Below, piece after piece: positions 10,549 through 43,708 of a stretch of 59,078 nt of DNA. Made by a program: the position numbers and the translations under genes. The notes under the pieces were generated by a model, which made no database searches, was not told where the DNA came from, and worked only from the letters and a program-made list of their open reading frames with translations. Within the stretch, counting starts at the first letter, position 1, and every line of letters begins with the position of its first letter. This stretch comes from Atopobium sp. UBA1382 (GTDB taxonomy: Bacteria > Actinomycetota > Coriobacteriia > Coriobacteriales > Atopobiaceae). The DNA is taken from positions 112,251 through 171,328 of the forward strand of contig DBQY01000016.1 of NCBI GenBank assembly GCA_002305805.1, in the 5' to 3' direction.

Positions 10549-11074
10549 CGCGCCTGCCCGGCGCCTCACAAGCTGGCGCCGTGGGGCCGTCCTCCGGGGC
10601 GGCCCCTTCTCGTGCCGCCGCGTCTACGAAATCGGGACGGTCCTCCTGTGACGGATTGGGGCTTCTAAGAATTCGCTATCGTCCCGATTGTGGCTGCAGC
10701 AACGTCTACGAATTGGCTATCGTCCCGGCTGTGAGGGCCGTATCGTCTACGAATTGACGCCCGTCCCGCGGTTGGACGGGCCTCTGGTCTGGGACAACCG
10801 CGTTTTCTTAGACGCGACAGCCGGTCGGGCTGGGACGATAGCCAATTCTTAGACGTCGTGGGACGCGAAACCGGGGCGCTCGGCATTTTGCAGACACGGC
10901 CGCCGCGTGACGTTGCCCGGCGAGAAGTGCGACGAGAATCGCAGGGCGAGAGGTGCGGCGAGAATCGCCCGGCGAGAAGCACGACGAAGCCGCTCGGCAC
11001 GCGCCGCTTCGCCCCGCGCCCCCGCCCCCACCTGCGGTATCATCTCAGCAGAAATCCGCGCACGAGGAGGGGAC
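10549..11074. other. 526-bp intergenic region holding repeat array A
   Basis: No gene seen. Just after the SDR stop is a GC-rich inverted repeat (GGGGCCGTCC/GGGGCGGCCCC, about 10581-10607) that could terminate transcription. 10621-10858 is the repeat array described separately. 10860-11070 is GC-rich, with repeated GCGAGAAG-type tracts leading to the ribosome site GAGGAGGGG of the next gene. Confidence 0.6.
10621..10858. repeat. Intergenic convergent repeat array A (four direct, two inverted units)
   Basis: Units of about 25 nt with consensus CGTCTAmGAAttsgctatCGTCC occur in direct orientation at about 10621, 10671, 10703 and 10744, and in inverted orientation at about 10788-10814 and 10830-10855. 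The unit at 10703 and the last one share the segment GAATTGGCTATCGTCCC exactly, in opposite strands. Spacers of 15-30 nt are unrelated. A transcript could fold into long stems. Function unknown. A related array is at 42551-42809. Confidence 0.75.
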
Positions 11075-40790: not shown

Positions 40791-42536
40791 ATGTTCCGTC
40801 GCTTCCTCACCTACTACCGCGGCCAGCTGCACCTCTTTGTGATCGACATCGTCGCCGCCGTCACCGTGGCGGCCGTTGACCTGGCCTTCCCGCAGATCCT
40901 CCGCAGCCTCGCGGGCGGCCTGTTCACCGAGGGCCCGGACGCGATCCTCGGCGTGCTGGCCTACCTGGCCGTTGGTCTGGTGGCCATGTACGCGCTGCGC
41001 TTTGTGTGCCGCTACTTTGTGATCTATTGGGGTCACGTCATGGGCGCGCGCATGGAGAGCCGCATGCGCGAGGACCTCTTTGACGCCTACGTGCGCCAGA
41101 GCTTCTCGTTCTTTGACCGCAACCGCTCCGGCGACCTCATGAGCCGCCTGGTCTCCGACCTCTTTGACATTTCCGAGGCCGCCCACCACGGACCGGAGTT
41201 TTTGCTGATCGGCGTGGTGGAGATTGCGGGCTCGTTTGTGATCCTCGCCACGATCAACGCTCCGCTCACGGCCGCGCTCGCGCTTATCGCCTGCCTGCTC
41301 GTGGCCTACAACGTGTGGGCCAACGTGCGCATGCGCGCGGTCTACACCGAGAACCGCGTGCGCATCTCCGGCGTGAACTCCCGTCTGGAGGACGCCCTCG
41401 GCGGCATGCGCGTGGTCAAGGGCTTTGCCGCGGAGGACGCAGAGAGCGAGAAGTTCCGTCGCTCCAACGACGCCTACCTGGACTCCAAGACGCGCATGTA
41501 CCGCGCCATGGGCCGCTACCAGGCCGCCATTGCGGTCATGATGGGCGCGCTGAACACCGTGGTGGTGGTCCTGGGCGGCTGGCTGATCGCGCGAGGGCAG
41601 ATGGAGGCGGCGGACCTCGCCACCTACGCGCTCTACATTTCGCTCTTCACCGCGCCGATCACGTCGATCCTGGATTTTACGGAGACCTTCCAGAAGGCGA
41701 TCGCGGGCTTCCGCCGCTTCTGCGAGGTGCTGGACGAGCAGCCGCAGATTCAGGACCGCCCCGGCGCGCGGGCGCTGCGCGTGAGCGAGGGCGCCATCCG
41801 CTACGACAACGTCCATTTTTCCTACTTGCCTAAAAGGGGTCAGACCCCTTTTAGGCAAGATGAGGTGATTCGCGGGCTGACGCTGGACATTCGTCCCGGA
41901 GAGACCATCGCGCTCGTGGGGCCCTCGGGCGGTGGCAAGTCCACCACCTGCGCGCTTCTGCCGCGCTTCTACGACGTGGACGCCGGCTCGATCTCGATTG
42001 ACGGCCAGGACGTGCGCGACGTCACGCAGAGGAGCCTGCGTGAGGCGATCGGACTGGTGCAGCAGGACGTCTACCTCTTCGACGGGACCGTTGCGGAGAA
42101 CATAGCCTACGGCTGCCCGGACGCCACCGCCGACGAGATTCGCCTGGCCGCGCGGCGCGCGAACATCGCTGAGTTCGTGGAGGGCCTGCCCGAAGGCTAT
42201 GAGACGCAGGTCGGCGAGCGCGGCAGCCATCTCTCCGGCGGTCAGAAGCAGCGGATCGCGATCGCGCGCTTGTTTCTCAAGAACCCGCCGATCCTGATCT
42301 TCGACGAGGCCACGAGCGCGCTGGACAACGAGAGCGAGCAGGCCGTCCAGGAGTCGCTCGAGGAGCTCTCGCGCGGGCGCACCACGCTGGTCATCGCGCA
42401 CCGCCTCTCGACGATCCGCCGGGCGGACGAGATCGTCACCATTGAGGACGGCCGCGTGGTGGAGCGCGGCACCCACGAGGAGCTTCTCGCCCGCGGCGGC
42501 ACGTACGCGCGCTATTTCGAGATGCAGTTCGCGTAG
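40791..42536 (+). CDS. ABC exporter, fused membrane and ATPase domains
   Basis: 581 aa half-transporter. Six transmembrane helices (about 15-300), then the nucleotide-binding domain with Walker A GPSGGGKST, signature LSGGQKQR, Walker B ILIFDEATSALD and the switch His in VIAHRLSTI. It is of the MsbA/LmrA multidrug or lipid type and works as a homodimer; substrate unknown. Residues 346-356 (LPKRGQTPFRQ) are encoded by a palindromic insert between FSY and the start of the ATPase domain. The insert is in frame and leaves all motifs intact. ATG 40791. Confidence 0.92.
   Translation: MFRRFLTYYRGQLHLFVIDIVAAVTVAAVDLAFPQILRSLAGGLFTEGPDAILGVLAYLAVGLVAMYALRFVCRYFVIYWGHVMGARMESRMREDLFDAYVRQSFSFFDRNRSGDLMSRLVSDLFDISEAAHHGPEFLLIGVVEIAGSFVILATINAPLTAALALIACLLVAYNVWANVRMRAVYTENRVRISGVNSRLEDALGGMRVVKGFAAEDAESEKFRRSNDAYLDSKTRMYRAMGRYQAAIAVMMGALNTVVVVLGGWLIARGQMEAADLATYALYISLFTAPITSILDFTETFQKAIAGFRRFCEVLDEQPQIQDRPGARALRVSEGAIRYDNVHFSYLPKRGQTPFRQDEVIRGLTLDIRPGETIALVGPSGGGKSTTCALLPRFYDVDAGSISIDGQDVRDVTQRSLREAIGLVQQDVYLFDGTVAENIAYGCPDATADEIRLAARRANIAEFVEGLPEGYETQVGERGSHLSGGQKQRIAIARLFLKNPPILIFDEATSALDNESEQAVQESLEELSRGRTTLVIAHRLSTIRRADEIVTIEDGRVVERGTHEELLARGGTYARYFEMQFA
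41826..41858. repeat. 33-nt palindromic element inside the ABC gene
   Basis: TTGCCTAAAAGGGGTC-A-GACCCCTTTTAGGCAA: two perfect 16-nt arms around one base. It starts on a codon boundary and adds exactly eleven codons. The GGGGTCAGACCCC core resembles dispersed REP-like palindromes found in many bacteria. Confidence 0.9.
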
Positions 42537-42910
42537 GGCGCGCGGAGGCCCGTCCGGAAATCGCTGCGTTTGTCCGCCGCGCGTCTAAGAATCCGCGTCC
42601 TTGTCGCCAGTCCTTCTAAAGAACGCCGCCCTTGTCCGCGGACCGTCTAAGAATCGCGGCCCTTGTCCACGCGCTGGCCGCTCAGTCCGGATAAAGGCCG
42701 CGTTTCCTAGAGCCGTCCCGTACAAGGGCGCCTTTTCCTAGATGCGTCCGCGACAAGCCTCCGTTTTCCTAGAGCCGTCACCCACAAGGGCCGCGATTCT
42801 CAGATCGCGCGCCCCCGCTTGTGGACGTTTCCCGTGACCTGTGCCGGGGTGTTTCTCGGCAGGTCCGCGCTGTATACTTGCGGAGCGAGGCATCAGTCGG
42901 AAGGGGGCGC
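42537..42910. other. 374-bp intergenic region almost filled by repeat array B
   Basis: No gene. 42551-42809 is the repeat array listed next. The remainder (42810-42910) carries the approach to the membrane-protein gene, with GTATACT at about 42871 as a possible -10. Confidence 0.6.
42551..42809. repeat. Intergenic convergent repeat array B (four direct, four inverted units)
   Basis: Direct units of about 25 nt start at about 42551, 42582, 42613 and 42644, a nearly even 31-nt period. Inverted units are at about 42689-42714, 42720-42746, 42751-42777 and 42782-42809, also about 31 nt apart. Consensus CGTCTAaGAAtcGCGgCCcTTGTCC. The unit at 42644 and the final inverted unit share GAATCGCGGCCCTTGT on opposite strands, so the two halves can pair into one long stem. 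Related in design and core to the array at 10621. Confidence 0.8.
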
Positions 42911-43708
42911 ATGTTCAGGAGGCACGTGAACGCTCGCGTGCAGCGCGGCGCGCTCTCGGCCGACGAGGCCGAGGAGCTGTTCTCCACCGTCGACCACACG
43001 GGCCACTCCGACGAGGAGCGCGCACGGCGCCAGCGCGCGCACCGCAAGGAGAAGGGCGTCTCCGTCGACGTTGACCCGCTCTCCGGCGACGACCCCTCCG
43101 GATCCGACGTCAGCCGGGTCATCACGCGCACGGCCGTCACCTTTGTCCTGGTGTTTCTCGTCCTCGTCGTGGCAGGTCAGGTTGCCTTTGGCATCATCCG
43201 CCGTGCCAACACGGCGCACCTCGCGGAGACCGCAAGCGTCCGCACCGTCGCGGACGCGCTGCGTGGCGGCGTGGAGTGGGGCGACGGCTTCACGCAGTTC
43301 CCCGAGGACTTCACCGTGCAGGAGGCGGACGAGAACACCGGCGTCATCGAGGTGGGCGTCGTGGACTCCGGCTCGTCGACCTCGCTCGAGTGCTTCTCGT
43401 CCTCCCAGGTCCAGGCGACCGCGCTCGCGGTCAACGCCCTGCTCAACCCCAACATCGACACCGTGATCTACCACGTGAGCGTCCACGTGGACGAGGACGG
43501 CAACATGCAGCAGTCCAGCCTCTTCGGCTTCTTCAAGCCCACGGGCGACGTCACCTCGTTCATGACCTTCGTCTGGCGAAAGACGCAGTCGGCGACCGGG
43601 GTCAACTTCTCGTGTACGATCACCGGCATCGACGAGTCGCTCCAGGAGGAGCTGCGCGACCAGGTGACCACTTCCTTCACCCCGGTCCAGACGTCGCGCG
43701 CAAACTAG
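42911..43708 (+). CDS. Single-pass membrane protein of unknown function
   Basis: 265 aa: a charged cytoplasmic N-terminus of about 70 residues (MFRRHVNARVQRGALSADEAEELF...), one transmembrane helix (AVTFVLVFLVLVVAGQVAFGII, about 76-97) and a folded extracellular domain (TVADALRGGVEWGDGFTQFPEDF...). No family recognised. ATG 42911 follows GAAGGGGG. It is followed by another single-pass protein, suggesting an envelope-related pair. Confidence 0.72.
   Translation: MFRRHVNARVQRGALSADEAEELFSTVDHTGHSDEERARRQRAHRKEKGVSVDVDPLSGDDPSGSDVSRVITRTAVTFVLVFLVLVVAGQVAFGIIRRANTAHLAETASVRTVADALRGGVEWGDGFTQFPEDFTVQEADENTGVIEVGVVDSGSSTSLECFSSSQVQATALAVNALLNPNIDTVIYHVSVHVDEDGNMQQSSLFGFFKPTGDVTSFMTFVWRKTQSATGVNFSCTITGIDESLQEELRDQVTTSFTPVQTSRAN

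Follow-up and report, generated by a model that had tools for sequence, protein, structure and literature searches.

The window, by which we mean the whole stretch of 59,078 nt that was analysed, carries an array of oriented repeats (array B) in the gap between two genes (Table 1). The upstream gene encodes a putative ABC exporter, a name assigned from its sequence, and its stop codon lies 16 nt ahead of the array. An orthologue of this gene precedes the same downstream gene in 19 of the 20 loci examined, our own included. The 265-aa product of the downstream gene has matches in 22 of 30 genomes, with identities of 71-100% in 19 genomes of its own genus, and as judged by eye the box TATACT stands ahead of the orthologous gene in 19 of 20 loci. 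A sigma-70 scan found no full promoter match near array B. Above the gathering score, Rfam 15 reported four tRNAs across the window and no structured-RNA match at the arrays. We also noted a perfect inverted repeat, CTTGCCTAAAAGGGGTC A GACCCCTTTTAGGCAAG, in frame inside the exporter coding region (41825-41859); a similar palindrome occurs upstream of plsX in G012 (locus L251).

Table 1. Features of the window discussed in the text, with unit scores from the matrix built on other genomes.
Feature	Position	Strand	Remarks
Array A	10623..10853		4 direct + 2 inverted units; period 41, centre offset 45; read from the sequence
Putative ABC exporter gene	40791..42536	+	ORF upstream of array B; name from sequence
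Array B	42553-42804		intergenic; 4 direct + 4 inverted 22-nt units flanking a 22-nt centre
Array B unit 1	42553..42574	+	direct, outermost left; 21.3 bits
Array B unit 2	42584..42605	+	direct; 30.9 bits; 31 nt after unit 1
Array B unit 3	42615..42636	+	direct; 27.3 bits; 31 nt after unit 2
Array B unit 4	42646..42667	+	direct, innermost; 34.6 bits; 31 nt after unit 3
Array B centre	42668..42689		22 nt, separates the two rows; start-to-start offset of units 4 and 5 is 44, the commonest value
Array B unit 5	42690..42711	-	inverted, innermost; 22.3 bits
Array B unit 6	42721..42742	-	inverted; 28.9 bits; 31 nt after unit 5
Array B unit 7	42752..42773	-	inverted; 21.4 bits; 31 nt after unit 6
Array B unit 8	42783..42804	-	inverted, outermost right; 26.9 bits; 31 nt after unit 7
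TATACT	42873..42878	+	-10-like box of the downstream gene; position checked
Downstream gene	42911..43708	+	ORF; 265-aa protein with an apparent membrane segment

The initial annotation had described eight degenerate copies of one repeat at 42551-42809, four pointing right and then four pointing left, evenly spaced at about three helical turns. All eight units lie within that interval and their period is exactly 31 nt in both arms. In this unit, which we call type I, both ends are conserved (TCTARGAAW on the left, CCTTGTC on the right) and a G in the middle is fixed. A weight matrix computed from 525 units of other genomes, with the orthologues of array B left out, recovered all eight units at 21.3-34.6 bits; this control is not wholly independent because the units were picked with a first matrix that had been seeded on the home genome, array B included. 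With the same matrix nothing else in the 59-kb window reached 12 bits, and two further places reached 8 bits. The 100 first-order Markov surrogates contained on average 0.22 matches when the threshold was 12 bits and 0.01 when it was 20 bits. We regard the observation of array B as confirmed.

A search of the home genome (2 Mb, G000) with array B matched 67 pieces. A two-unit model based on sequence only gave at least 118 matches, which form 36 clusters; as one cluster comprises two arrays, the total for this genome is about 37 arrays, at least. The loci that we fetched contained 105 distinct arrays with 806 units, a set that takes in array A and a few arrays of a second type (type II, see below). 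The direct-then-inverted order is thus found at many intergenic loci, which is the support that the initial annotation had asked for, and is not restricted to the two loci of the window. Eight of the about 37 arrays of the home genome are found 300 bp or less from a contig end (both ends of C4 and C22, and C6, C8, C12 and C19), where fewer than one is expected, and contig starts carry arrays in G001 (C17, C26) and G014 (C22, C23) as well. The assemblies seem to break at arrays.

Among 60 genomes searched with strict filters, eight matched at E ≤ 0.001 and none of the matches fell outside the genus. Type I is abundant in G000, G003, G005 and G015 with at least 80 to 108 matches each, and G023, G004, G007 and G025 have at least 2 to 7. 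There are thus three species about as rich as the home species, namely Olsenella uli An820 (G003), Olsenella sp. An270 (G005) and an uncultured Olsenella bin (G015). In a collection of species genomes, which may omit records near the home genome, the two-unit pattern matched 58 stretches, all of them in these three genomes and in G023 (Thermophilibacter provencensis), so that the taxa matched are Olsenella and Thermophilibacter only. A phage origin was considered and rejected, as the two-unit pattern had no exact match in viral contigs. In G023 a pair of arrays about 7 kb apart stands around a PTS gene cluster (L159, 7390-14493), and in G007 a pair stands around a two-gene permease-like cluster (L160, 8792-12093). 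Among the matches listed, these pairs look like transfers from array-rich relatives.

The layout of the arrays is strict. In the fetched loci the spacing between units on the same strand is 31 in 556 of 599 cases, 41 in 16 and 30 in 10, and spacing indels are few. The offset across the centre is 44 in 69 of 102 arrays and 75 (44 + 31) in another 15; the values 34, 65 and 74 occur three times each. Nearly all arrays begin with a + unit (103 of 105) and have both arms (102 of 105), an order that is partly imposed because clusters were split where the orientation turns from - to +. The arms are runs of 1-12 units in the same direction, mostly 2-6. Units at the edges deviate from the motif: innermost units are relaxed at the end that faces the centre and outermost units at their outer end. 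Of the units in 170 arms, 53% of the innermost vs 87% of the outermost end in C, and TA occupies unit positions 3-4 in 143 innermost vs 74 outermost units. Such edge effects fit with contacts between neighbours.

The other array of the window, array A, had also been noted in the initial annotation. Five of its six units score above 7 bits with the home-genome matrix and both arrays have the left half TCTAMGAAW in common. The period of array A is 41 and its inner part is different, however, and with the same layout it is thus a sister type and not a copy. Further types were found in relatives, where the layout is kept, the motif is changed and the spacing is about one helical turn longer. Type II is rich in G004 and G025 (at least 88 and 87 matches, respectively) and its frame resembles that of type I. 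Counted in the type II genomes only, its period is 41 in 58 of 69 cases and 31 in eight, and its centre offset is 44 in nine of 14 arrays and 34 in two. The type II unit is a partial dyad, with scores of up to 22 bits when a unit is read on its other strand. Type III occurs in G001 and G011 (55 and 29 pattern matches), with a period of 41 in 59 of 64 cases and a centre offset of 54 in six of 10; its pattern had no match in the 38 other genomes, and the reversed pattern gave none. The periods and centres thus shift by steps of about 10 bp, that is one turn of B-DNA at a time. The single frame common to types I, II and III was aligned by eye.

Another repeated word was encountered in G013 and G014 (26 and 37 matches), with successive copies mostly 40 apart; 38 other genomes gave 0 to 7 matches and reversed controls 0 to 6. 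The pattern of a variant from G007 matched, among 40 genomes, only two units in G007 and one in G005. Several other repeats were noticed along the way. Upstream of plsX in L245, L246 and L247, and also in L275, there are long inverted repeats whose arms resemble AACACGCAGAATTACC / GATTCTGCGTGTT, which form another repeat family of the genus. L251 (G012) has several CGAGCATGCCCC...GCACGG units in both orientations upstream of plsX, possibly a further array type. Inverted repeats with AAAAGTACCCA arms were seen in L202 and L197 (gaps in G001 and G007), and a short word, GGCGAGAAG / CTTCTCGCC, recurs next to arrays and in many other gaps across the genus (e.g. L038, L046, L015 and L016).

To describe the genomic place of the arrays we used gene calls from a simple codon-bias script. 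For 80 arrays with called neighbours the gap was convergent in 24 cases, co-directional in 44 and divergent in 12, and some of the 'divergent' neighbours look like false antisense ORFs. Convergent gaps are enriched relative to ordinary gene pairs (24/80 vs 31/267, odds ratio 3.3, p 0.0002), with a background made up of all adjacent pairs, among them those with short operon gaps. The median distance is 25.5 nt behind a stop codon and 117 nt ahead of a start codon. When ORFs lying mostly within arrays were dropped, 84 array-bearing gaps stood against one array inside a called ORF. We also looked at the genes flanking the 12 arrays in 'divergent' gaps as candidates for a binding protein; they are diverse with nothing in common.

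The motif is conserved at matching places. For 17 array pairs chosen by flank matches, in which nine home arrays were compared with An270, An820 and the uncultured bin, 1319 of 1470 high-information motif positions were identical. The corresponding numbers were 784 of 1219 for low-information unit positions, 816 of 1205 for linkers and 3818 of 4633 for the 150-nt flanks. The identity of the motif exceeded that of the linkers in 17 of 17 pairs, though part of it could reflect the alignment of non-matching units because all units share the motif. When matching gaps were compared between the four rich species, an array was present on both sides in 88 of 89 directed comparisons, in a sample that is biased because the loci were fetched for arrays.

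Beyond the four rich species the individual gaps gave different pictures. In the gap of array B, for which 20 loci were compared, four species have type I and G004 has type II. Judged by eye, G001 and G011 have type III and G007 has a related variant. By eye we also found other repeats in G010, G013, G014 and G016 and no recognisable array in G002, G012 and G018; in G006, G008, G009, G017 and G045 the gap is short. This gap suggested that the motif changes in place at every locus, an idea that was not borne out at plsX. Here, among 17 genus members, arrays are confined to the four type I species; the other 13 lack an array of types I to III and some of them have different inverted repeats. The restriction of the plsX arrays to type I species weakens in-place replacement of the motif. 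The gap at L004 was comparable in four of 16 loci, with an array in three type I species and none in G007. Taken together, plsX and L004 make a gain at clade level at permissive gaps as likely as replacement in place.

The best reading of these observations is in our opinion a row of protein-binding sites. We consider it somewhat probable that an array is a helically phased row of predicted sites for a lineage-specific DNA-binding protein, situated just behind genes. The motif, its phase and orientation, its conservation and the place of the arrays were observed directly; from them we infer the binding protein, its cooperative binding and a role as a boundary. Each 22-bp unit would be an oriented site on double-stranded DNA for one such protein. 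As one unit follows the next after a whole number of helical turns (31 or 41 bp), the bound proteins would share one face of the helix and could touch their neighbours, and two rows of protein would face one another over a fixed centre. The symmetric nucleoprotein complex would then form where one or two genes end, directly after the stop codon, and may act as a boundary that blocks read-through, shields neighbouring transcription units or holds supercoils. The regular spacing in all types, the conservation of the motif over the linkers, the little sign of selected pairing (see below), the relaxed edge units, the place behind genes and the arrays shared between species at matching gaps support this reading. 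The 44 co-directional arrays and the 12 in gaps called divergent, some of them probably wrong gene calls, count against it. So do the terminator-like hairpins ahead of several arrays, the excess pairing in parts of the arms, the weak correlation of arm sizes (all described below) and the partial dyad of type II units.

A rather unlikely alternative is that the arrays are selfish, either as REP/BIME/REPIN-like repeats or as miniature elements with multi-site inverted ends, which spread by transposition, have no role for the host and owe their spacing to a transposase. Hundreds of extragenic units behind genes, in lineage-specific families and with two ends of opposite orientation, would be expected of such elements, and the type I-only arrays at plsX agree with this as well. 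So do the array pairs of G023 and G007 around gene clusters, the former being 88% alike over 222 bp. Several observations speak against it. Compared with letter shuffles, type I and III units fold worse (-1.24 vs -2.24 kcal/mol for 200 sampled units and -4.51 vs -5.77 kcal/mol for 80, respectively) and type II units only slightly better (-6.60 vs -6.03 kcal/mol for 93). Neither is a REP transposase needed, and we dropped this link: PF01797 was found in 28 of 40 genomes, yet no Y1 transposase was detected at E ≤ 1e-3 in G005, a 98% complete genome with many type I arrays, and the two Y1 genes of G000 are about 9 and 19 kb away from the nearest array. Furthermore, 95 sampled arrays of the four rich genomes contained no near-identical full-length pair at different loci, and the array gaps are common to the species with flanks that are mostly 80-92% identical.

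We then consider the RNA. The initial annotation had stated that the ends of array B can pair into one long stem. A stable fold is indeed predicted on both strands (-108.5 kcal/mol, z -5.6 on the + strand and -129.7 kcal/mol, z -5.5 on the - strand, relative to shuffles), but a strong fold is a consequence of one motif standing in both orientations, and the stem as the feature that is kept did not hold up. We compared the pairing of the two arms in 69 arrays with centre 44 to that of arms taken from different arrays. Linkers 1 and 2 pair at 0.320 and 0.340 where 0.316 and 0.329 are expected, and unit 2 is slightly under the expectation. An excess of Watson-Crick pairs over the permuted arms, with z between 1.9 and 3.0, is seen in linker 3 (0.419 vs 0.342), in units 1, 3 and 4 and in the centre; it may be due to composition, because the outside flanks have an excess just as large (z 3.4). 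In a set of 755 units, letters with a strong mutual dependence are adjacent or a few places apart, the diagonals with raised sums contain such neighbours, and no compensating changes were found beyond neighbouring letters. Equal arms occur in 19 of 102 arrays vs 21.2 expected, and the sizes of the arms correlate weakly (0.32). After these tests of arm permutation, covariation and arm length, the long hairpin was set aside as a selected feature.

It is accordingly improbable that the array acts as a transcribed hairpin whose long stem serves as a bidirectional terminator or stabilises the 3' end of the upstream mRNA. The stable folds and the place of the arrays behind stop codons speak for this, as does a scan of 42400-43000 that gave one weak terminator-like site within array B on the + strand, with 0.4 expected in shuffles; an intrinsic terminator would be a short GC stem with a run of U after it at the end of a gene. 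Against it, the arms show no clear match beyond the shared motif and the flanks, and unequal arms are usual (83 of 102). Some arrays have spacings of 31 and 41 in different arms, which breaks the register of a stem, and there is no RNA reason for spacings that change in steps of 10. Judged by eye, several arrays come after an ordinary terminator-like hairpin and so are not needed to end those transcripts. That the arrays are functionless, degenerate leftovers of old tandem duplications is very improbable and largely refuted: two linkers are near-identical ten times as often within an array as between arrays (3.1% vs 0.31%), which indicates some tandem growth, and unit numbers vary between species at matching places, but the motif is kept in 17 of 17 pairs while the linkers drift, and hundreds of units have diverse linkers with few spacing indels.

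Rows of protein-binding sites thus remain the best reading, ahead of mobile repeats and RNA. More tentatively, the arrays may represent a new class of chromosome element, a proposal that we regard as possible rather than probable. On dozens of phased, mirror-symmetric arrays per genome, an architectural protein specific to the lineage would be loaded from either side toward the centre, and the arrays would insulate transcription units. Protein and motif would have changed jointly from one species to another, such that sister species have the same layout in a different sequence. If a protein binds the arrays, a common gut lineage would possess an architectural or boundary system, and the divergence of the motif between sister species would make the co-evolution of protein and DNA directly testable. 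The strict spacing and the clean motif should ease the capture of the binding protein. We know of no other bacterial case of mirror-symmetric site arrays phased turn by turn at dozens of gene ends, and in a literature search, judged by titles and the openings of abstracts, we found no description of such phased mirror arrays.

The nearest known kind are the REP/BIME repeats, from which the arrays depart in key features. According to PMC3733652 and PMC2817692, REP, BIME and REPIN sequences are extragenic, reach hundreds of copies, lie behind genes in convergent or co-directional gaps, are specific to lineages and occur in opposite orientation. The arrays resemble them in being extragenic (as the gap counts above illustrate), in many copies, behind genes, lineage-specific and with opposite orientations. 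A REP transposase (Y1_Tnp) is usually associated with REPs and flanked by them, but CGTC-tagged REPs without a dedicated transposase are reported in PMC3733652; likewise some array units begin with CGTC and the arrays have no dedicated transposase. According to the same paper, most REP families have no head-to-tail dimers, fewer than expected or a negligible number, and clusters are frequent in some GTAG families (PMC3733652). In our arrays it is usual for units to follow each other in one direction, up to 12 in a run, and the order is direct-then-inverted where BIMEs alternate. Where a REP unit is a stem-loop of 20-40 bp, the units of types I and III are not palindromic and type II is a partial dyad, and unlike in REPs the spacing is fixed to whole helical turns. 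The earlier judgement that this is no REP in the usual sense is therefore upheld by the non-palindromic units (I, III), the same-direction runs and the absence of a required transposase.

MITEs differ as well, since near-identical copies at unrelated sites were not found among 97 sampled arrays from five genomes. Seven pairs within a genome reached 88% or more over 50 bp or more: five with a length of 50-53 bp, one of 76 bp (neighbouring arrays) and one of 222 bp (the G023 pair). With respect to the terminal inverted repeats and target-site duplications of MITEs, the outer units of the arrays are degenerate and the unit numbers vary. In a CRISPR, repeats that are almost identical all point one way and are separated by unique spacers of about 30 nt. 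The arrays have regularly spaced repeats too, but their layout bears out the earlier statement that they are not CRISPRs: the 22-nt units are degenerate, the linkers are 9 nt long, the orientation inverts at the centre and there are many small arrays. The ends of Mu- and Tn7-like transposons carry several transposase sites each and are in opposite orientation. The oriented sites of about 22 bp, several per end and with inverted ends, are similar; unlike these transposons the arrays have no cargo between the halves, no defined outer ends were seen, the unit number is variable and the gaps are common to species. In plasmid iterons and centromere-like operator clusters, phased rows of sites load one protein cooperatively. 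The arrays are phased rows of sites in the same way, and may load a protein cooperatively, but unlike these clusters they are distributed by the dozen across the chromosome rather than confined to one locus.
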